NCBI GenBank assembly: GCA_026982705.1
Contig: JALSGP010000006.1
Coordinates: 1-64,000 of the forward strand
Source of the DNA: Alphaproteobacteria bacterium
GTDB lineage: Bacteria > Pseudomonadota > Alphaproteobacteria > Geminicoccales > Geminicoccaceae
Length of the DNA: 64,000 bases
Reading direction: 5' to 3'
The notes under the pieces were generated by a model, which saw nothing but the letters and a program-made list of their open reading frames with translations, was not told the DNA's origin and did no database searches. Made by a program: the position numbers and the translations under genes. Shown here piece after piece: positions 1,985 through 60,083 of the stretch (its first letter is position 1; every line of letters begins with the position of its first letter).

Positions 1985-2750
1985 CATCAAATCTCTGGAA
2001 TCGTAGGGAAAATATCGATCAATTCATCGTTATACATGGGCGTCTTATAAAGGAATCTCTTTCGGACCTTGAAGAGGTTTGTGCCAATCCATTTTTCTCC
2101 ATCCCAGTGTTCGGTTTCCTTCATTAATTGTATCTTGATAAAACACTTGATGAGTCCGCATATAATATCAGTGATTTGAATTAACTCGGAATTCTTTGAA
2201 TCAATGGAAGTTATTGACTCTGCAATTGGGTTGGTCATACTTTCTCTTTTTATTTTCTTGCAAAATGCAAATTTGCGCAAATTTGACAAATACATCTATG
2301 GCCGTCAAGAACCAATCTTCCGGTTGTTTTTCTAAGGAGTTACTAGATTCAGACTATTTTATATGATTGATATACGTACCGCATCTATCCATATCAATTG
2401 CCGAAACTGCAATATTATGGATAGTAACAAATTTAACGAAAATTTTCTAATGATCTCCTTATATCTTGATCATCTACATGTTTATAAGCGGCCCCGAACT
2501 TTAATTCAAAATACAGATTTACCTCTCCATTTTATTTATTTTTATGATATGAACAATTTCTACGATTATTGCTTTAGCCTCTCTCTGCGCCTTTGGGTAT
2601 CGATATGCATCGATAATAATACTTGCAAAGACCACGAGGGCGTCGTTCCCTCCACCAATACCAGTTTCATAGCAAAAGGCGAGCTTCATTTTATTAACCC
2701 TTCGACGATCTGTTGCAGGCGTGTTTATATCATGCTGTCCAGCCTCCCGC
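1985..2750. other. AT-rich island of apparently foreign base composition
   Basis: About 765 bases between clpB and the Uma2 gene are visibly AT-rich, with runs such as TTTATTTATTTTTATGATATG, inside a chromosome that is otherwise strongly GC-rich. The edges are sharp: GC-rich sequence ends at the clpB terminator and resumes near 2740. The only gene-like content is the shattered DUF3800 gene on the minus strand. No flanking direct repeat, integrase or tRNA was seen at the edges. The composition points to recent transfer from an AT-rich donor (inference). Confidence 0.8.
1987..2689 (-). pseudogene. Shattered DUF3800-family gene
   Basis: Pieces of one DUF3800 protein can be read in successive minus-strand frames. 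The N-terminal piece starts at ATG 2689-2687 (MKLAFCYETGIGGG, then VVFASIIIDAYR) and stops at 2519. The middle is carried by shifted frames (YFELKFGAAYKHVD; KFVTIHNIAVSAIDMD). The C-terminal piece, in a third frame, contains DSKNSELIQITDIICGLI and ends at 1987. That is at least three frameshifts plus stop codons. The usual DUF3800 motif is D-E-S/T-G; here the Asp has become Tyr (CYETG), so even the N-terminal piece has lost an expected active-site residue. An AAGGG element precedes the ATG. The family assignment comes from motif order by eye. DUF3800 genes are frequent in mobile DNA, and the function is not established. Confidence 0.65.
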
Positions 2751-2779
2751 CAACCCCCGCCATGGCCTGCGCTGGGCGG

Positions 2780-3394
2780 ATGGCCTATCTTGCGGAGCGG
2801 GACGGACCGGGAGCAACGCCCGTGGCCGAGCCCGCCGAAAGGCTCATGACCGTCGCCGAGTTCCTGCGCTGGGACGACGGTACCGACCGCCGCCACGAGC
2901 TCGTGGGCGGCCGGCCGGTGATGATGGCCCCGCCCTCGCGCGTGCACGGCGCCCTGGCGCTCGCCATCGGCGCGGAGCTGCGCGCCCGGCTGGCACCGCC
3001 GTGCCTGCCGCAGGTCGAGGCCGGCATCGTCTTCCCGCACGACGATTTCGATTTCTTCGTCGCCGACATGGCGGTGAGCTGCGCGCCGCCCGCGGACGAG
3101 CTCTGGTGCCCCGAGCCGGTGCTGCTCGTCGAGGTGCTCTCGGAGAGCACCCGTGCGCACGACCTCGGCGTCAAGCTTCCGGCCTACCGGCGGCTGCCGT
3201 CGGTGCGGCACATCCTGCTGGTGGAGACGCGGGAGGTGCGGATCGAGCACTGGCGTCGCGAGGGCGAGGGCTGGCACGTACGGGACGTGGGCCCGGGCGG
3301 CGTGGTGGTGCTGGAGGATCTCGGCGTGCGGCTGGAGGTGGATGCACTCTACCGGGATCTGCCGGTGGGCGGCAGTGGCGAGGTACCGTCGTGA
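2780..3394 (+). CDS. Uma2 family (DUF820) endonuclease-like protein
   Basis: A protein of about 204 residues of the Uma2/DUF820 family, which has a PD-(D/E)XK-type nuclease fold and is often found in accessory DNA. Family features are the N-terminal MTVAEFL..D..RRHELVGGRPVMM, a central FFVADMAV strand carrying the acidic residue, and the signature LLVEVLSESTRAHD followed by KLPAYRRLPSVRHILLVE, with the E-x-K-type residues. ATG 2780 is preferred; ATG 2762 and ATG 2846 are in frame. The frame stays open upstream to 2363, but that part is AT-rich island sequence and is not credible as protein. The cellular role of single-copy Uma2 proteins is unknown. A broken relative lies on the other strand at 3955-4135. 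Confidence 0.8.
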   Translation: MAYLAERDGPGATPVAEPAERLMTVAEFLRWDDGTDRRHELVGGRPVMMAPPSRVHGALALAIGAELRARLAPPCLPQVEAGIVFPHDDFDFFVADMAVSCAPPADELWCPEPVLLVEVLSESTRAHDLGVKLPAYRRLPSVRHILLVETREVRIEHWRREGEGWHVRDVGPGGVVVLEDLGVRLEVDALYRDLPVGGSGEVPS

Positions 3395-3594
3395 GGTCCT
3401 GGCGCGTTTCCTTGAGGCGATGGCATCCGATGCCTTCTGGCCGGCTCCTTCCTTGTACGATCGAATGCGAGCTGCGGGCGATCTCGGATCCGGACAGCAC
3501 CGTGGCGACGGTGTGAGCGGATTCGGCCCATGGCACCCGGCCAACCCCGAGCTCCCCCGCCGAGGTCCGAGGCCGGCCTTCCGAGATCCGAAGC

Positions 3595-3800
3595 CCAGAG
3601 GCCGGCCGATGCCGGCGCACATCACCCGCGGCAACCGCACCCGCCGGACCGTGCACGGGCTCCTCGAGCACGTCTTCGCCGCCCTCGAACGGCGCTTCCG
3701 CTTCCGGATCCGCTCCATCGGCCCGGCCCGGGCCAAGGCCCACATCGCCCTCGTCAACCGCACCCGGCTCGTCTTCCGGGAGACACGACTCGCGTGGGCC
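3595..3800 (+). pseudogene. IS5-type transposase C-terminal remnant
   Basis: The frame around ATG 3609 reads NRTRRTVHGLLEHVFAALERRF, then IRSIGPARAKAHIALVN and RLVFRETRLAWA. This is the pattern of the DDE transposase C terminus in IS5-related elements (R-x-R-V-E-H-V-F-A-x-x-K ... IRTIGLARA ... ANLAYN ... RLVWLE). The Glu of LEHVF would be the third catalytic acid. No N-terminal two thirds, start codon or terminal inverted repeats were found, so this is a leftover of an insertion sequence. The AYN part of the usual motif is missing, which may be a small in-frame deletion. Confidence 0.6.
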
Positions 3801-3954
3801 GAGTCGGCCCGGATTCCACGGATGGCGCCCGAAGGCTCCGCCAAACGGAGCCGAAGGGACGGAAGGCGGGCGGAAACACACGTCTCGCCACCGCTCCCGA
3901 AGCCGACGATCTCGCAGGCCTCCCGCTCCCCATCCCGATGGCCCCGACGGGGCG

Positions 3955-4236: not shown

Positions 4237-6450
4237 ATGTGCGGATTCGCCGGCTTCCGCCGCTTCGACCGGCCGCTCGAGGCCGCCCACGACGGCCGCA
4301 TCGTGCGGGCGATGACCCGCAGCCTCGCCCACCGCGGACCCGACGACGAGGAACTCCTGCTGGAGAGCGAGGCGGGAGTTGCCCTGGGCTTCCGCCGTCT
4401 CGCCGTGATGGACCCGTCGCCGGCCGCGCGCCAGCCCATGCGTTCGGCCTGCGGCCGCTACGTGCTGGTCTTCAACGGCGAGATCTACAACCACCGCGAA
4501 CTGCGGGCGGAGCTGGAGGCCCTGGGCCACATCTTTCGCAGTCGCGGCGACACCGAAGTCCTGCTGGAATGCTGTGCCCGCTTCGGCATCGAGACGGCGC
4601 TGCGGCGAGCCAGCGGCATGTTCGCCCTGGCCCTCTGGGATCACCGCGAGCGCCGCCTCGTCCTCGCCCGCGACCGTTTCGGCAAGAAGCCCCTCTACTG
4701 GGGGCGGCTCGGGGATCTCCTGCTGTTCGCAAGCGAACTGCGGGCCCTCCTCCACCACCCCGAGTTCAGGCCGGCGCGCGATCCCGAGGCCGTCGCCCTC
4801 TATCTGCGCTTCGGCTATGTGCCGACGCCGCGCGCCGTCCTCGCCGGCGTCGAGAAGCTGCCGGCGGGTGGCATGCTGGTGGTCGAGGCGGACGGCACGA
4901 CACGCCGGATGCGCTGGTTCGATGCCGTGGCCGAGGCCGAGGCGGCGGTGGCGGACCCGCTCGACGGCGACGAAGAGGCGCTGCTCGACCGCTTCGCCGC
5001 GCTCCTGGAGGACTCGGTGCGGCGGCGGCTGGTGGCCGACGTGCCCGTCGGCCTGTTCCTCTCGGGCGGTCTCGACAGCACGCTGGTGGCGGCGCTGGCC
5101 GCCCGCGCCGACCCCGGACTCGAGACCTTCACCCTCGGCTTCGACGATCCCGCCTTCGACGAATCCACCCATGCCGCCGCCATCGCCCGCGCCCTCGGCC
5201 TCGTCCACCGGGTCGAACGCATCCCGGCCCACCGGCTGCCGGAGCTGGTCCACGATCTGCCGCGGGTGTGGGACGAGCCCTTCGCCGATCCCTCGGCGCT
5301 CCCCACCCTCGCCCTCTGCCGCTTCGCCCGCACGCGGGTGGTGGTGGCCCTGTCCGGTGACGGCGGCGACGAGCTGTTCGCCGGCTACCGTCACTATGCC
5401 GACGTCCTGCGCCTCCACCGCCGGCTCGCCCGCCTGCCGCGCCGCCTCGCCCGGCTGGCCCGGGCGCCGCTGCGCCTGCTGGACGGGGCGCTGCTCACGG
5501 AGCTGGGACGATGGCTGCCGGCGGTGGCGCGGCTGCGGCCGGACGAGCGGGCGGGGCGCCTGGCCGAGGTGCTGGGGGCGGAGCCGGAGACCCTGATGCG
5601 CATCCTGGTGGGCCATCACGACCGGCCGGAGCGCATCTATCCGCTGGCCGCCGGCATGCCGCCACCGATGTGGCGGGAGGGCGTCTCGCGACGCATCCGC
5701 ACCCTGCCGGAGCGGCTGCAGCTCCTCGACCTGCTCCAGTGACTGCCGGACGACATCCTGGTCAAGATCGACCGCGCCTCCATGAGCTGCGGCCTCGAGG
5801 TGCGGGCGCCCTTCCTCGACGAACGGGTGGTGCGCTTCGTCTGGCGACTGCCGCCGTCGTCGCGCCACGACGGCCGGCGCGGCAAGGTGCTGGTGCGACG
5901 GCTGCTGGCGCGCCTGCTGCCGCCGGAGCTGTGGACGCGCCCCAAGCACGGCTTCGCGCCACCGTTGCACGACTGGCTGCGCGGTCCGCTGGCGCCGCTG
6001 GTGGAGGACCTGCTGACGCCGGACTCGCTGCGCGCCGCCGGACCGTTCGACGTCGCGCGCGTGCGGCGACTGTGGGAGGAGCACCGGGAAGGGCTGGTGG
6101 ATCGCCGGTTCGAGCTGTGGAACCTGCTCGCCTATCTGCTCTGGTATCACAACGCCTTCCGCACCGAGGCCTGCCGTCCGCATGGGGTTCCGCGCAAGAC
6201 GGTTCGAGCGGACGGCCTCGCCGGCGCGGATCAGGAAAAGGTGCCGAGCGGCAGTTCGAGGTGCACGGGCCCTGCGGGTTGCCGTTCGATCAGACAGAGA
6301 CCCACCTGCCCGAGGTCGACCGACAGGGCGACGCGCTCGTGCCGCCGGATGGTCTCCCAGGCCCGACGCATGCCGGCCGCCAGGCGATGTCGTCGAAGAG
6401 CAGCACCGCACGCTCGGCGAGGTGTGGGAGGAACGCCCGGAAATAGGTGA
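4237..6450 (+). pseudogene. asnB: Asparagine synthase (glutamine-hydrolysing) with in-frame TGA
   Basis: AsnB makes asparagine from aspartate, ATP and glutamine. ATG 4237 follows GGTGGAGG and places the catalytic Cys at residue 2 (MCGFAGF). The glutaminase domain (RGPDDE) is followed by the synthetase domain with the PP-loop SGGLDST (about 279-285) and GDGGDELFAGY. At codon 502 the frame has TGA (5740-5742), then resumes exactly in frame with LPDDILVKIDRASM and LEVRAPFLDERVV, where relatives have a Tyr-Leu-Pro-Asp-Asp sequence. Homology fades near 6165, but the next in-frame stop is only at 6448-6450, inside the antisense methyltransferase, so the native stop also seems lost. A truncated 501-residue product would lack part of the synthetase active site. 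A sequencing error at the TGA is possible. Confidence 0.8.
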
Positions 6451-54402: not shown

Positions 54403-56313
54403 ATGAGCGAGACCGCCCGGTCCCTCGGCGAGCACCACGCCAGCATCGCCCTGCCCCGTCGCGGACCCCTCTGGCGCCGCTGGTTCGCCGTGGCGGGACC
54501 GGCGCTGCTGGTCTCCGTGGGCTACATGGATCCCGGCAACTGGGCCACCGACCTCGCCGGCGGCAGCCGCTACGAATACGCGCTGCTGTGGGTGCTGCTG
54601 ATGTCGAACCTGATGGCCATGCTCCTGCAGAGCCTGGCCGCCCGGCTCGGCATCGTGCGTCGGCGCGATCTCGCCCAGGCGTGCCGCGAGCGCTTCCCGC
54701 GCCCCGTCAATCTCGCCCTCTACGTGATGGCCGAGATCGCCATCATCGCCACCGATCTCGCCGAGGTGCTGGGCTCGGCCATCGCCCTCCAGCTCCTCTT
54801 CGGTCTGCCGCTCTTGTGGGGCGTCGCCCTCACCACCCTCGACGTCCTCCTGCTGCTGGCCCTCTCCAGCTACGGGATCCGCAAGCTGGAGGCGCTGATC
54901 CTCTCCTTCGTGGTGATGATCGGCGGGGGGTTCCTCGTGGAGATCTGGCTGGCCGATCCCGACTGGGGACGGGTGGCGGCCGGCCTCGTCCCCTCGCTGC
55001 CGGATGCCGGCGCCCTCTACATCGCCGTCGGCATCCTCGGCGCCACCGTCATGCCCCACAATCTCTACCTCCACTCGGCCCTGGTGCAGACGCGGCGGAC
55101 GCCCGATCCGGAGTCGATCCGCCAGGCGGTGCGGCTCAACACCGTCGATTCGGTGCTCTCCCTCAATCTCGCCTTCCTGGTCAACGCCGCGATCCTGATC
55201 ATGGCGGCGGCGGTGTTCTACCGTGCCGGCGTCGAGGTGGCCGAGATCCAGGATGCCCACAGGCTGCTGGAGCCGCTCCTGGGCAGCACGGTGGCGCCGC
55301 TGGTCTTCGCCCTGGCGCTGCTGGCGGCGGGCCAGAGTTCCACCATCACCGCCACCCTCGCCGGCCAGATCGTCATGGAGGGCTTCCTCAACATCCGCAT
55401 TCGCCCGTGGCTGCGGCGGCTGATCACCCGTCTGCTGGCGGCGGCGCCGGCGGTGTTCGTGATCCTCTTCATGGGCGAGGATCGCACCGGCGAGCTGCTG
55501 GTGCTCAGTCAGGTGGTGCTCTCCCTGCAACTGCCCTTCGCCGTGATCCCGCTGATCCATTTCGTCTCCGACCGGGAGACCATGGGCGCGTTCGCGGTGG
55601 GGCGGCTGGTACGGACCCTGGCCTGGGCGGTGGCGGCGCTGATCGTGGGGCTCAACCTCAATCTCGTCGTCGGCGAGATCACCGCCTGGACCGCCGACGA
55701 CCCCACGGGACCGCTGGCCCTCGCGCTCCATGCCCTGCTCGCCGCGGTGCTGCTGCTGTTGGCCTATGTGACCTTCGCCCCGCTCCTCGCCCGCCTGCGC
55801 GGCATCCGGGTCCCCGTCCGCAGCATCGACATCCACGGGACCGCCGCCCGGACCGTGGCGCTGCCGGAGGCCGCGCCCCGCTACCGCCGGATCGCGGTCG
55901 CCCTGGATTTCGGCGGCGGTGAGGAACGGGTGCTGGCCGAGGCCCTGCGGCAGGTCGATCCCCGCACGGGTGAACTGCTGCTGCTGCACGTGGCCGAGAG
56001 CCCGGTCGCCCGCGTCTACGGTGCCGAGGCCGAGGACTACGAGGTGGAACAGGACCGGGCGCGGCTGGAGGCGCTGGTGGAGCGCCTGCGCGCCCACGGC
56101 GTGCGGGCCCGCTACCGGCTCGGCCGCGGCGATCCCCTCTCGGAGCTGGCGCGTCTGTGCGCCGAGGAGGCGGTGGAGCTGCTGGTGGTGGGTGCCCACG
56201 GTCATCGTGGCGTCGAGGACGTGCTGTTCGGGGCGACGGTGAGTGGGCTGCGCCACCGGCTCGCCATTCCGGTGCTGGTGGTCCCGCCCCCGGCCGCCGA
56301 CGGGACGCGGTAG
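54403..56313 (+). CDS. NRAMP metal-ion transporter fused to a universal stress protein domain
   Basis: 636 residues. Residues 1-470 form an NRAMP divalent-metal/proton symporter: DPGN at 43-46 in TM1, MPHN at 217-220 in TM6 (the metal-binding Asp, Asn and Met), and about 11 membrane helices. Residues about 488-631 form a UspA domain (YRRIAVALDFGGG at the start; VVGAHGHRGVEDVLFGATVSGLRHRLAIPVLVV at the end, with the ATP-binding G-x2-G-x9-G-S/T-like motif). MntH proteins are normally about 410-440 residues. The added cytoplasmic domain could couple uptake to ATP or stress state (inference). ATG 54403. It is transcribed toward the aio genes. Confidence 0.9.
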   Translation: MSETARSLGEHHASIALPRRGPLWRRWFAVAGPALLVSVGYMDPGNWATDLAGGSRYEYALLWVLLMSNLMAMLLQSLAARLGIVRRRDLAQACRERFPRPVNLALYVMAEIAIIATDLAEVLGSAIALQLLFGLPLLWGVALTTLDVLLLLALSSYGIRKLEALILSFVVMIGGGFLVEIWLADPDWGRVAAGLVPSLPDAGALYIAVGILGATVMPHNLYLHSALVQTRRTPDPESIRQAVRLNTVDSVLSLNLAFLVNAAILIMAAAVFYRAGVEVAEIQDAHRLLEPLLGSTVAPLVFALALLAAGQSSTITATLAGQIVMEGFLNIRIRPWLRRLITRLLAAAPAVFVILFMGEDRTGELLVLSQVVLSLQLPFAVIPLIHFVSDRETMGAFAVGRLVRTLAWAVAALIVGLNLNLVVGEITAWTADDPTGPLALALHALLAAVLLLLAYVTFAPLLARLRGIRVPVRSIDIHGTAARTVALPEAAPRYRRIAVALDFGGGEERVLAEALRQVDPRTGELLLLHVAESPVARVYGAEAEDYEVEQDRARLEALVERLRAHGVRARYRLGRGDPLSELARLCAEEAVELLVVGAHGHRGVEDVLFGATVSGLRHRLAIPVLVVPPPAADGTR

Positions 56314-56376: not shown

Positions 56377-56736
56377 GTGATCCGGCGAGCGTGGACCCGA
56401 CGCGGGCTCCTGGCGACGGCGGCGGGACTCGCGGCGACGGCCGGGGCGCGCGAGCCGCTGCGACTGGGTCTCACGCCGGTGTTCCTCGACAACGACCTGA
56501 TCCTGCTCCGGCGGCTGCAGGCCCATCTCGAGGCCCGGACGGGATGGCCCTGCCGGCTGGTCAAGCGCCGCAGCTATCAGGAGATCACCGTGCTGCTGCT
56601 GGCCGGCCGCGATCTGGAACGTTTCGCCCGCCGGTTCGGCGTGGACGTGGGCGGCCTCGCGCCCGAGGCGGCGCGGCTGCTCGGCATCTCCCGCACCACC
56701 CTGTGGGAGAAGATGCGTCGCTACGGGCTGGGCTGA
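56377..56736 (+). pseudogene. Fusion remnant: AioX-like N terminus joined to AioR-like C terminus
   Basis: 119 codons from GTG 56377, preceded by GGGGAGGGGG. Residues 1-25 are a signal with a twin arginine (TRRGLLATAAG). Residues 26-78 (EPLRLGLTPVFLDND, LQAHLEARTGWPCRLVKRRSYQEITVLLLAG) match the start of AioX/PhnD-like periplasmic oxyanion-binding proteins. From about residue 79 (base 56611) the sequence changes to DLERFARRFG and EAARLLGISRTTLWEKMRRYGL, the Fis-type helix-turn-helix that ends NtrC-family activators such as AioR. The lost middle would hold most of AioX, the AioS kinase, and the AioR receiver and AAA+ domains. The product cannot bind arsenite like AioX or activate sigma-54. The assignment rests on motifs and on position next to aioBA. 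Confidence 0.7.
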
Positions 56737-56737
56737 C

Positions 56738-56785
56738 GTTCGAAGATCCGGACGTGCCGCGCCGCCCGCGTCCGGTGGATCGAAC
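56738..56785 (+). promoter_or_regulatory. Long imperfect inverted repeat after the AioX/AioR remnant
   Basis: Arms GTTCGA-N4-CCGGACG (56738-56754) and CGTCCGG-N4-TCGAAC (56769-56785) are symmetric, with a 4-base internal mismatch and a 14-base loop. It begins right after the remnant's stop, so it could be the old aioR terminator. It also lies 43-90 bases upstream of the sigma-54 promoter, where an activator would bind. No T-run follows. Confidence 0.5.
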
Positions 56786-56827: not shown

Positions 56828-56843
56828 TGGCACGGTTCCTGCT
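56828..56843 (+). promoter_or_regulatory. Sigma-54 (-24/-12) promoter upstream of aioBA
   Basis: TGGCACGGTTCCTGCT has the invariant GG (56829-56830) and GC (56841-56842) with exact spacing, matching TGGCACG-N4-TTGCW at nearly every conserved base. The predicted transcription start is near 56854, about 140 bases before aioB. Arsenite-induced aio operons in other proteobacteria use such promoters with AioR. Confidence 0.75.
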
Positions 56844-56916
56844 TCGTCGGACGATGACCGGCCACCGGGGCCGGTCGCGGGAGGGAGCGACGGCCGCCCG
56901 CGGGACCCTCGGGCCC

Positions 56917-56930
56917 TTGACGCGGATCAA
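56917..56930 (+). promoter_or_regulatory. FNR/FixK-type binding site upstream of aioB
   Basis: TTGACGCGGATCAA fits TTGA-N6-TCAA, the FNR, FnrL and FixK consensus of alphaproteobacteria, and matches TTGAT-N4-ATCAA at nine of ten bases. A TATCGG element at 56954-56959 is placed as the -10 of a class II promoter, with a start near 56965 and a leader of about 29 bases to aioB. Confidence 0.65.
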
Positions 56931-56993
56931 GGTGGCACCCGGCGGCCGCCCTCTATCGGACCTTCGGCATATGCGCATGCGGTGGAGGAGGCG

Positions 56994-57524
56994 ATGCGAC
57001 GCTGCAGGCTGATGGTGGAGGTGGGGCGCCGGCAATTCCTGCGCGGCACCGTCGGCACCGCGACCGCGGCGGCGGCCGCGGCGACGGTCGGCGGCGGCGC
57101 GCGGGCGGCGACCCCGCGGGGCGGGGTCGTGCCGGACTATCCGCGCATCCGGCTCGCCAACGTGCGGGATCTGGTGGTGGACGAGCCCCTGGAGGTGACC
57201 TATCCGGACGCGGATGCGCCGGGGGTTCTCCTCAAGCTGGGCCGGCGGGTCCCCGGCGGGGTCGGGCCCGACGGCGACATCGTCGGCTTCACCACCGTCT
57301 GCCCGCACAAGGGCTATCCGCTCCACTACGTCCGTGAGGAGCGGACCCTCGACTGTCCCGGACACTTCTCCCGCTTCGACGTGGAGGCGGGCGGCCAGCA
57401 GGTCTGGGGCCACGCCACCATGAACCTGCCCCAGTACGAGCTCCGGGTCGACGAGAAGGGGGACATCTGGGCCGTCGGCCTCGACGAGCTGCTCTACGGG
57501 CGTGTTTCCAACGTGCTCGGCTGA
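56994..57524 (+). CDS. aioB: Arsenite oxidase small subunit, Rieske protein
   Basis: 176 residues. A Tat signal (GRRQFLRG at 11-18) exports the folded Rieske protein, with AioA carried along, to the periplasm. The 2Fe-2S ligands are C103/H105 (CPHKGY) and C121/H124 (CPGH). QQVWGHATMNLPQYELRV and VDELLYGRVSNVL-type endings (here LDELLYGRVSNVLG) are specific to AioB. Residues 108 (Tyr) and 123 (Gly) replace the two cysteines that form a disulfide in some AioB proteins, as reported for the Rhizobium NT-26 type. ATG 56994 follows GGAGGAG; GTG 56982 is a poorer choice. aioA follows after 12 bases. Confidence 0.95.
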   Translation: MRRCRLMVEVGRRQFLRGTVGTATAAAAAATVGGGARAATPRGGVVPDYPRIRLANVRDLVVDEPLEVTYPDADAPGVLLKLGRRVPGGVGPDGDIVGFTTVCPHKGYPLHYVREERTLDCPGHFSRFDVEAGGQQVWGHATMNLPQYELRVDEKGDIWAVGLDELLYGRVSNVLG

Positions 57525-57536
57525 GGGGAGGGGATC

Positions 57537-60083
57537 ATGGCCTTCAAGCGCAACGTGGATCGACTGCCGATCGTGCCGCCCGACGCGGAGGAGTACAATG
57601 TCGTCTGTCACTTCTGCATCGTCGGCTGCGGCTACAAGGCCTATGTGTGGGACGCCAATCGCGAGGGCGGACCGGAACCGTCACGCAACAAGTTCGGCGT
57701 GGATCTCCGGCGCCAGCAGGACGCCGATTCGGCGGCCTGGTACGCGCCGTCCATGTACAATGTCGTCAGGAAGGACGGCCGCGACGTCCACATCGTGATC
57801 AAGCCCGATCCCGACTGCGTGGTGAACCGCGGCCTCGGTTCCATCCGCGGCGCCAAGCTGGCCGAGTACTGCCATTCGCTCGTCACCGGCACCCAGATCA
57901 ACCGGCTCACCGACCCGCTGGTCTGGCGCTACGGGCAGATGCAGCCCACGAGCTGGGACGACGCCCTCGACTTGGTGGCGCGGGTGACGGCGCGGGTGAT
58001 CAAGGAATACGGCTGGGACGGCGTGTTCGTCTCCGCCTACGACCACGGCGGCGCCGGCGGCGGCTACGAGAACAACTGGGCCATCGGCAAGCTCTACTTC
58101 CAGTCGATGGAGATCACCAACATCCGTATCCACAACCGGCCCGCCTACAACTCCGAGGTCCACTCGAGTCGCGACATGGGCGTCGGCGAGCTCAACAACG
58201 CCTACGAGGACGCCGAGCTGGCCGACACCATCGTCGCCGTCGGCACCAATCCGCTGGAGACGCAGACCAACTATTTCCTCGCGCACTGGATCCCGAACCT
58301 GCGGGGCGAAACCCTGGAGAAGAAGAACCGTCTCCTGCCGGGCGAGCCCCACGAACCGGCGCGCATCGTCTTCGTCGATCCGCGGCGGACGGTGTCCATC
58401 AACGCCGCCGAGGCGGCGGCCGGCAAGGACCGTGTGCTCCATCTCGCCATCGAATCCGGCACCGATCTGGTGCTGTTCAACGCCCTGCTCACCTACATCT
58501 ACGACAAGGGCTGGATCGATCGCGACTTCGTCGAGAAGTACACGGTCGGGTTCGAAAAGGGCCCGCAGGAGCCGCCCATGTATCCGGCGCGCGCGGACTC
58601 GGGCGAGTTCGCCGGGCGCTGGCCCGGTCTCGACGAGGTCGTCCGCGAGATCCGCATCTCGCCCGAGGAGGCAGCGAAGATCTGCGGCGTGCCGGCCGGG
58701 GACATCGTCAAGGCCGCCCACTGGATCGCCGAGCCCAAGGCCGGCGGCCATCGCCGGCGCACCATGTTCGGCTACGAGAAGGGCGTCATCTGGGGCAACG
58801 ACAACTACCGCACCATCGCCGCGCTGGTGAACCTCGCCCTCGCCACCGGCAACGTCGGCCGCCCCGGTGGCGGCTGCTGCCGCATGGGAGGGCACCAGGA
58901 GGGCTACGTGCGGCCGCCCTATCCGGGCGGACGGCCGGCACCCTACATCGACAAGCTGCTGATCGAGGGCAAGGGGGCGGTCCACCACATCTGGGGCTGC
59001 GATCACTACAAGACCACGCTCAATGCCACCGAGTTCAAGCGCGTCTACAAGAAGCGCACCGACATGGTGAAGGACGCCATGAATTCGGTCGGCTGGGCCG
59101 ATCGCGACCGGCTGGTGGACGCCATCCTGTGGGCCATCCGTCAGGGCGGTCTCTTCGCCGTGGACGTGGACATCAAGCCCACCATGATCGGCGAGGCCTG
59201 CCACGTGGTGCTGCCCGCCGCCACCCAGGGCGAGATGAATCTCACCTCCATGAACGGCGAGCGGCGCATGCGCCTGTCGGAGCGGTACATGGACCCGCCC
59301 GGCCAGGCGATGCCCGACTGCCTCATCGTCGCCCGTCTCGCGAACCATCTGGAACGGGTCTTCCGCGAGATGGGGGACGAGAGGATGGCCGAGCGCTTCC
59401 GCGGCTACGACTGGAAGACGGAAGAGGACGCCTTCATGGACGGCTACCACCGGCACGCGCCCGGCGGCAAATTCGTCACCTACGCGCGGCTGCGGAAGAT
59501 GGGCACCAACGGCTTCCAGGAGCCGGCGGTGGGCGTCGACGAGGAGGGGCGCATCATCGGGACGCCGCGTCTCTACACCGACGGCCGCTTCTCCACGCCG
59601 GACGGCAGGGCCCGCTTCATGATCACCAAGTGGCGCGGGCTGCAGGCGCCGGGCAAGGCGGAACAGAAGCGTCGCTATCGCTTCCTGATCAACAACGGTC
59701 GCGCCAATCACGTGTGGCAGTCCTGGTACTACGACCAGGATCATCCGCTGGTGACCGATCGCTGGCCCTGGCCGTTCCTCGAGATGAACCCGGAGGACAT
59801 GAAGGAGCTGGGACTGCAGGCGGGCGATCTGGTGGAGGTCTACAACGACGCCGGCTGGACCCAGGCCATGGTCTATCCCACGCCGACGGCCAGGCGGGGC
59901 GAGACCTTCATGCTCTTCGCCGCCCCCCGCGGCGTCCAGGGCAATGTGGTGAACAACGGCGTCAACGAGCTGGTGATCCCCAACTACAAGCAGACCTGGG
60001 CCAACATCCGCAAGATCGCCGACGCACCGGCCGAGGCCCGGCGGATCTCCTTCAAGTCGAAGGAGTACAGACCACCGGCCTGA
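57537..60083 (+). CDS. aioA: Arsenite oxidase large subunit, molybdopterin protein
   Basis: 848 residues, DMSO reductase family. The 3Fe-4S motif C24-HF-C27-IVG-C31 is followed by Ser102 in NRGLGSIRG where relatives with 4Fe-4S have a fourth Cys, which is diagnostic of AioA. GGAGGGYENNWAIGKLYFQSM and IHNRPAYNSEVHSSRD line the Mo site region, and the C-terminal cap ends with QTWANIRKIAD. It oxidises arsenite to arsenate in the periplasm, passing electrons through AioB to cytochrome c or azurin. It carries no signal peptide of its own. No cytochrome or molybdenum-cofactor gene follows. Confidence 0.97.
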   Translation: MAFKRNVDRLPIVPPDAEEYNVVCHFCIVGCGYKAYVWDANREGGPEPSRNKFGVDLRRQQDADSAAWYAPSMYNVVRKDGRDVHIVIKPDPDCVVNRGLGSIRGAKLAEYCHSLVTGTQINRLTDPLVWRYGQMQPTSWDDALDLVARVTARVIKEYGWDGVFVSAYDHGGAGGGYENNWAIGKLYFQSMEITNIRIHNRPAYNSEVHSSRDMGVGELNNAYEDAELADTIVAVGTNPLETQTNYFLAHWIPNLRGETLEKKNRLLPGEPHEPARIVFVDPRRTVSINAAEAAAGKDRVLHLAIESGTDLVLFNALLTYIYDKGWIDRDFVEKYTVGFEKGPQEPPMYPARADSGEFAGRWPGLDEVVREIRISPEEAAKICGVPAGDIVKAAHWIAEPKAGGHRRRTMFGYEKGVIWGNDNYRTIAALVNLALATGNVGRPGGGCCRMGGHQEGYVRPPYPGGRPAPYIDKLLIEGKGAVHHIWGCDHYKTTLNATEFKRVYKKRTDMVKDAMNSVGWADRDRLVDAILWAIRQGGLFAVDVDIKPTMIGEACHVVLPAATQGEMNLTSMNGERRMRLSERYMDPPGQAMPDCLIVARLANHLERVFREMGDERMAERFRGYDWKTEEDAFMDGYHRHAPGGKFVTYARLRKMGTNGFQEPAVGVDEEGRIIGTPRLYTDGRFSTPDGRARFMITKWRGLQAPGKAEQKRRYRFLINNGRANHVWQSWYYDQDHPLVTDRWPWPFLEMNPEDMKELGLQAGDLVEVYNDAGWTQAMVYPTPTARRGETFMLFAAPRGVQGNVVNNGVNELVIPNYKQTWANIRKIADAPAEARRISFKSKEYRPPA

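Follow-up and report, generated by a model that had tools for sequence, protein, structure and literature searches.

Among the closest described counterparts of the locus studied here are two kinds of aio system. In the AioXSR-controlled 'Type I' aio islands of A. tumefaciens and Rhizobium NT-26 (PMC7533571), the genes aioX-S-R lie in that order upstream of aioBA, and aioB is preceded by an operator pair and a sigma-54 promoter. The pocket of AioX comprises Tyr88, Cys106, Tyr131, Ser161, Ser163, His192 and Asp210 (PMC5908839), and footprinting in A. tumefaciens GW4 placed AioR on GTTCGGATTTCCGAAC (PMC5335332). The 'Type III' oxidisers, among them Halomonas HAL1, carry aioBA without AioXSR in the genome; regulation in HAL1 is exerted by PhoBR, with PhoB acting at a Pho box (PMC4563254). 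Arsenite oxidisers devoid of AioXSR are already known, but the route by which the system is lost and replaced has been described for very few.

The window, that is the whole stretch of 64,000 nucleotides that we analyzed, shares traits with both. It has an operator pair and a sigma-54 promoter before aioB, as in the 'Type I' islands, and a remnant that derives from their aioX-S-R genes; as in HAL1, aioBA is found without AioXSR in the genome, so that another regulator must act in both organisms. The genome carrying the window (G000) is a draft of 48 contigs, 99.66% complete, and our conclusions rest on this one genome for the species. The group to which the organism belongs includes hot-spring species. 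As reference we used G002, a genome of the same genus whose aio locus (L033) is intact.

An open reading frame of 119 codons with a GTG start spans 56377-56736 on the + strand, exactly where the preliminary description had placed it. Comparison with G002 resolved this frame into aioX codons 1-78 followed by two pieces of aioR. The features of the region are the following:

54403-56313, + strand: mntH, an Nramp metal transporter fused at its C-terminus to a universal stress protein (Usp) domain; upstream synteny anchor, which precedes aioX in G002 too
56377-56610, + strand: aioX remnant with start codon, twin-arginine-type signal and the first ~78 codons; 80% to G002 aioX over 74 aa
56611-56622, + strand: junction 1, where aioX breaks off behind G002 codon ~76 and the AAA+ lid of aioR takes over, placed by codon-level comparison
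56623-56670, + strand: internal aioR remnant, AAA+ lid (FARRFGVDVGGLAPEA), matching G002 FARHFGVEVEDLAPEA
56663-56672, + strand: region of junction 2, a deletion inside aioR between CCGAGGC copies
56671-56736, + strand: C-terminal aioR remnant (ARLLGISRTTLWEKMRRYGL) and stop; second half of a Fis-type HTH
56994-57524, + strand: aioB, Rieske subunit, with ATG 56994 taken as start by G002 homology (ORF-caller start GTG 56982); TIGR02694, 184.6 bits, cut-off 95.65
57537-60083, + strand: aioA, molybdopterin subunit, intact; TIGR02693, 1257 bits, cut-off 359; 91% to G002

The frame had been read as the start of aioX joined to the end of aioR, and this reading is borne out because the pieces match AioX structures, the Fis HTH and separate genes of G002. 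Residues 27-78 of the fusion matched the AioX crystal sequences 6ESV/6ESK (E 3e-10) and the match ended at residue 78; AioX matches in unrelated genomes also stop at about this residue. The remnant keeps the pocket tyrosine (in RRSYQE, equivalent to Tyr88 of NT-26 AioX) and has lost the arsenite-binding Cys106 together with the later pocket residues. With 78 codons left, it falls short of AioX as a full two-lobed binding protein with a complete pocket. At the other end, the C-terminal remnant is the same as G002 AioR in 20/20 residues and matched Pfam HTH_8 (E 1.5e-8) over profile positions 22-42 of 42 only, whereas intact AioR covers positions 2-42. No receiver or AAA+ domain match was obtained with the fusion while G002 AioR has all three domains, and the fusion is therefore not an AioR, which combines a receiver, a sigma-54-interacting AAA+ domain and a complete Fis HTH. 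AioS sequence is absent from the window locus, and with it any orthologue bearing HisKA and HATPase domains. The switch had been located near 56611 and thought to lead directly into the HTH tail. A junction does lie at 56611-56622; however, residues 83-98 (FARRFGVDVGGLAPEA) belong to the AAA+ lid, a domain formed by residues 303-382 of intact AioR, and only residues 99-118 to the HTH.

The intact order in G002 is mntH-aioX-aioS-aioR-aioB-aioA (aioX at L033 1541-2386, aioS at 2390-3859, aioR ending at 5147), and the window shows the same order minus about 3.25 kb, less than the ~4 kb initially proposed. G002 has 3,607 bp from the aioX start to the aioR stop where the window has 360 bp, and the pieces of the fusion map on G002 to aioX 1547-1768 (80%) and aioR 5052-5141 (80%). 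Junction 1 joins aioX codon ~76 to aioR near L033 4764, with ~3.0 kb gone. At junction 2, 252 bp or 84 codons were lost inside aioR (G002 coordinates) at the 7-bp repeat CCGAGGC, copies of which are found in G002 at L033 4818 (CCCGAGGCC) and 5070 (GCCGAGGCG). The single deletion first invoked is at odds with residues 83-98, which match a segment from within aioR, and was rejected in favor of two junctions that separate three pieces. The parental reading frames are kept at both junctions, for which the chance is ~1 in 9. We conclude that the ORF at 56377-56736 is very probably the scar of two deletions in an aioX-aioS-aioR operon. One deletion would have joined the beginning of aioX to a middle portion of aioR and the other, at the 7-bp direct repeat, would have shortened the aioR part, in an order that we infer.

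Searches of the whole G000 genome with G002 AioX, AioS and AioR as queries revealed no other orthologue of the three genes, only the remnants and distant relatives. The best AioX match was the fragment itself (E 6e-4 beyond it), and the best other matches had 34% identity for AioS and 47% for AioR; a relocation of aioXSR within the genome was rejected since no orthologue was found. Neither the PLSDB plasmids nor 385 genomes of the class yielded a full-length homologue of the fusion: matches to its AioX part go no further than about residue 78, and those to its AioR part start around residues 72-93. One match in G161 (residues 16-117, 32%, within a 619-residue frame) was so weak that we do not regard it as a homologue. 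The proposal of an in-frame collapse of aioXSR that spared the oxidase is thus strengthened by the complete operon that G002 carries at this position, by the lack of another orthologue in the genome and by the lack of a full-length homologue. There is a small chance that a divergent or unassembled aioXSR exists in G000, less than 1% of the genome being missing. That intact aioXSR is really present at this place, distant parts having been joined by the assembler or by a chimeric template, is very unlikely, even though the genome is a draft of 48 contigs. The missing genes are on no other contig, although the genome is 99.66% complete, and assembler k-mers greatly exceed the 7 bp of the repeat; moreover, two junctions less than 60 bp apart, both in frame and with few shared bases, are not a typical assembler failure, and the same genes were lost independently in relatives.

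The deletion scar looks recent. Relative to G002, the remnant has a dN of 0.121 and a dS of 0.64, and its dN/dS of 0.19 is near the values of the intact neighbours (mntH 0.174, aioB 0.138, aioA 0.093); differences at codon positions 1, 2 and 3 number 12, 12 and 43. When the sequence is modelled simply as evolving neutrally once the genes were lost, point estimates place the event in the final 0-20% of the branch; the upper limits are 22-42%, depending on the constraint assumed before it. These values favor the earlier suggestion that the event may be recent, which had been offered together with the possibility that the peptide is kept; the latter gained no positive support. A selected small protein, acting as an exported peptide or as a truncated DNA-binder on the AioR operators, would give the same dN/dS picture, and would also fit the frame retained through both junctions, a plausible ribosome site and the HTH identical to that of G002. 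We nevertheless hold it to be very improbable, as a recent loss predicts the low dN/dS equally well, the HTH has no first helix, the export signal would carry the product away from DNA and no homologue of the whole length exists in the genomes and plasmids searched. The single-sequence AlphaFold structure of the fusion (mean pLDDT 46) points the same way, although it is uninformative and, made without an alignment, weak evidence. The open frame alone is also weak evidence, because the DNA is GC-rich and other frames are open across the same stretch. A consensus scan near the ORF found no sigma-70 promoter and no terminator. If made, the product would be expected neither to sense arsenite nor to transfer phosphate nor to activate the sigma-54 polymerase. 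That the arsenite-binding cysteine, AioS, receiver and ATPase motor are all gone, that the HTH is halved and that an export signal is present argues for a scar and not a sensor.

Between the scar and aioB, the promoter region has kept the signature of AioR control:

56738-56753, + strand: AioR operator 1, GTTCGAAGATCCGGAC, 17.9 bits; sole exact GTYCGRANNTYCGRAC match in the genome
56770-56785, + strand: AioR operator 2, degenerate, GTCCGGTGGATCGAAC, 7.4 bits; 32 bp from operator 1
56828-56843, + strand: sigma-54 -24/-12 element, TGGCACGGTTCCTGCT, score 18/19, reached by 0/200 shuffles

The palindrome GTTCG-N6-CGAAC, first noticed beside the window remnant, was recovered when the aioB upstream sequences of ~80 named genomes were scanned; it occurs there with at most one mismatch in 63/68 AioR loci (a few counted twice) and is the site footprinted in GW4. 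The operator matrix was built from 64 AioR-containing loci. Most of these 64 have two sites, and the pairs are 29-33 bp apart in nearly all two-site loci. A weak operator is present in HR40 as well (6.8 bits, as compared with 7.4 for the second one in the window). The sigma-54 element precedes aioB in most AioR-containing loci, and rpoN is present in G000. By sequence criteria, GTTCGGANNTCCGAAC-type operators followed by a -24/-12 element make up a predicted AioR-dependent promoter. Most distant AioR-less loci have neither the operators nor the sigma-54 element, while both are kept in G004, G018 and G024 (AioR elsewhere) and at two other loci. Exact AioR-operator-like palindromes were also seen in another genome of the window's genus, with no close aioA shown (G001:C87:3025 and G001:C229:158; L152, L153); they may be due to chance or be sites of another regulator. 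The window's genus is unusual in the distance between aioB and the sigma-54 element, which is found at -154/-141 and thus ~100 bp more remote than in nearly all other genera (~-45).

Judged from these predicted sites and the loss of aioR, the operators and the sigma-54 element of the window are leftovers. They could still serve if another NtrC-family activator had taken over the old operators. The operators, the element and rpoN are all there, and several other NtrC-type activators are encoded in G000; yet the AioR HTH did not turn up a second time anywhere in the genome, and the two tails read among these activators differ in the recognition helix (LGLNRNTLRKKL and LGISIRTLRNKL versus LGISRTTLWEKM). 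We regard a takeover of this kind as unlikely. Equally doubtful is that aioBA is silent now, a doomed oxidase without a working activator. Sigma-54 promoters require an activator and AioR is gone, and in aioA 13 changes are specific to the window as compared with 6 to G002. This difference is, however, not significant (p 0.17), and the idea that aioA has evolved under relaxed constraint since the regulators disappeared was rejected for that reason. Furthermore, both oxidase genes are intact (dN/dS 0.09-0.14), both subunits score well above the cut-offs of the curated arsenite oxidase models, and a second promoter-like arrangement exists. Most likely, aioBA is now expressed from another promoter than the sigma-54 one. 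A Pho box as in HAL1 was tried as a candidate and rejected, none in the window being good (best site, 6/14 mismatches).

The second arrangement lies between the sigma-54 element and the aioB ATG at 56994, and was spotted post hoc while reading the intergenic sequence:

56917-56930, + strand: FNR/FixK-type box, TTGACGCGGATCAA, followed by GG; sole TTGAYNNNNRTCAA match in 64 kb, expected 0.03
56954-56959, + strand: predicted -10-like element TATCGG, 37 bases past the start of the box

The company that the box keeps across the genome, resembling a regulon, and its promoter geometry make it more than a curiosity. G000 contains 11 TTGAYNNNNRTCAA sites, and none was obtained with a reversed-pattern control. 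The other boxes lie upstream of ccoN, ccoG, coxB/ctaC, a divergent pair of nirS and a nosR-like gene, and a narG-like molybdoenzyme gene. A -10-like element is found at 37 bases for the nosR-like gene (TAGCGT) and at 36 for nirS and the narG-like gene (TAGCCG); the ccoN, ccoG and ctaC sites have no comparable -10. The distant position of the sigma-54 element leaves room for an FNR-type promoter at 56843-56994 of the window and in the equivalent stretch of G002. The sequence of G002 at the same position is CTGATCGGACTGAA, with 3 mismatches, and a good box is absent from the close relatives compared. For the regulator, a candidate is encoded on contig C12 of G000, with the Cys cluster CESCEVRDLAVC and an ETVSR recognition helix. 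FnrL was its best NCBIfam model (E 5e-54), but the score of 183 bits is under the curated cut-off of 300 and the predicted protein is accordingly filed as FnrL/FixK-like only. An FNR/FixK-type regulon would call for a TTGAY-N4-RTCAA box set to drive a promoter behind it, for further members and for a matching regulator; in G000, a candidate for each of these was seen.

We give about an even chance to the expression of aioBA from this putative promoter at 56917-56959. At slightly below even odds we put the broader scenario of a regulatory replacement caught half-way, in which aioXSR was lost, an FNR/FixK-type promoter was gained and arsenite oxidation would have entered a low-oxygen or denitrification regulon with nirS, the nosR-like, narG-like and cbb3 genes. 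If this holds true, aioBA would be induced by the oxygen or nitrogen-oxide status and not by arsenite. Two distant AioR-containing loci (L093, L106) have a box with at most one mismatch. That loci devoid of AioR generally rely on such boxes instead was rejected, as no other AioR-less locus has a box at this threshold. In the library of papers searched, none joining FNR with aioBA was found.

Loss of the regulatory genes is recurrent in relatives, which supports the view that aioXSR is dispensable. In two genomes of one genus (g2) related to that of the window, G024 carries aioX-S-R away from aioBA, intact up to a contig end that cuts aioR, and in G018 (L148:8353-10482, G018:C109) aioX is missing along with the first half of aioS, and aioR is in three frames. 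Between the TolC-family/secreted-protein genes and glnA, a stretch that includes aioS-aioR sequence in G018 and G024, G004 (L166, G004:C41) has ~140 bp. Because an AioR operator and the sigma-54 element survive before its aioB, the evidence favors a loss rather than an original absence at that site. A separate genome, G003 (HR39; L034, L150), has two aioS-aioR copies on different contigs, one of them beside aioBA. These genomes offer a natural series for regulator loss, from intact (G002, HR40, G024) through decaying (G018) to gone (G004).

Compared with the known systems, the window differs from the 'Type I' islands in that sensor, kinase and activator are gone and a 119-codon aioX-aioR fusion is left, and from HAL1 by its AioR relics and its FNR/FixK-type box. 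The box, the trailing GG and the -10-like spacing resemble those of the class II promoters of the FNR/FixK/DNR family, which serve denitrification and cbb3 oxidase genes and have their likeness in G000 at nirS, the nosR-like and the narG-like genes; unlike these known promoters, the aioB site is read from sequence. In the window, an intermediate would still be readable: the scar looks recent, the AioR operators and the sigma-54 element have survived, and a candidate for a new promoter is present. Should this FNR-type promoter prove active, the lineage would oxidise arsenite in step with anaerobic respiration and not in response to arsenite.
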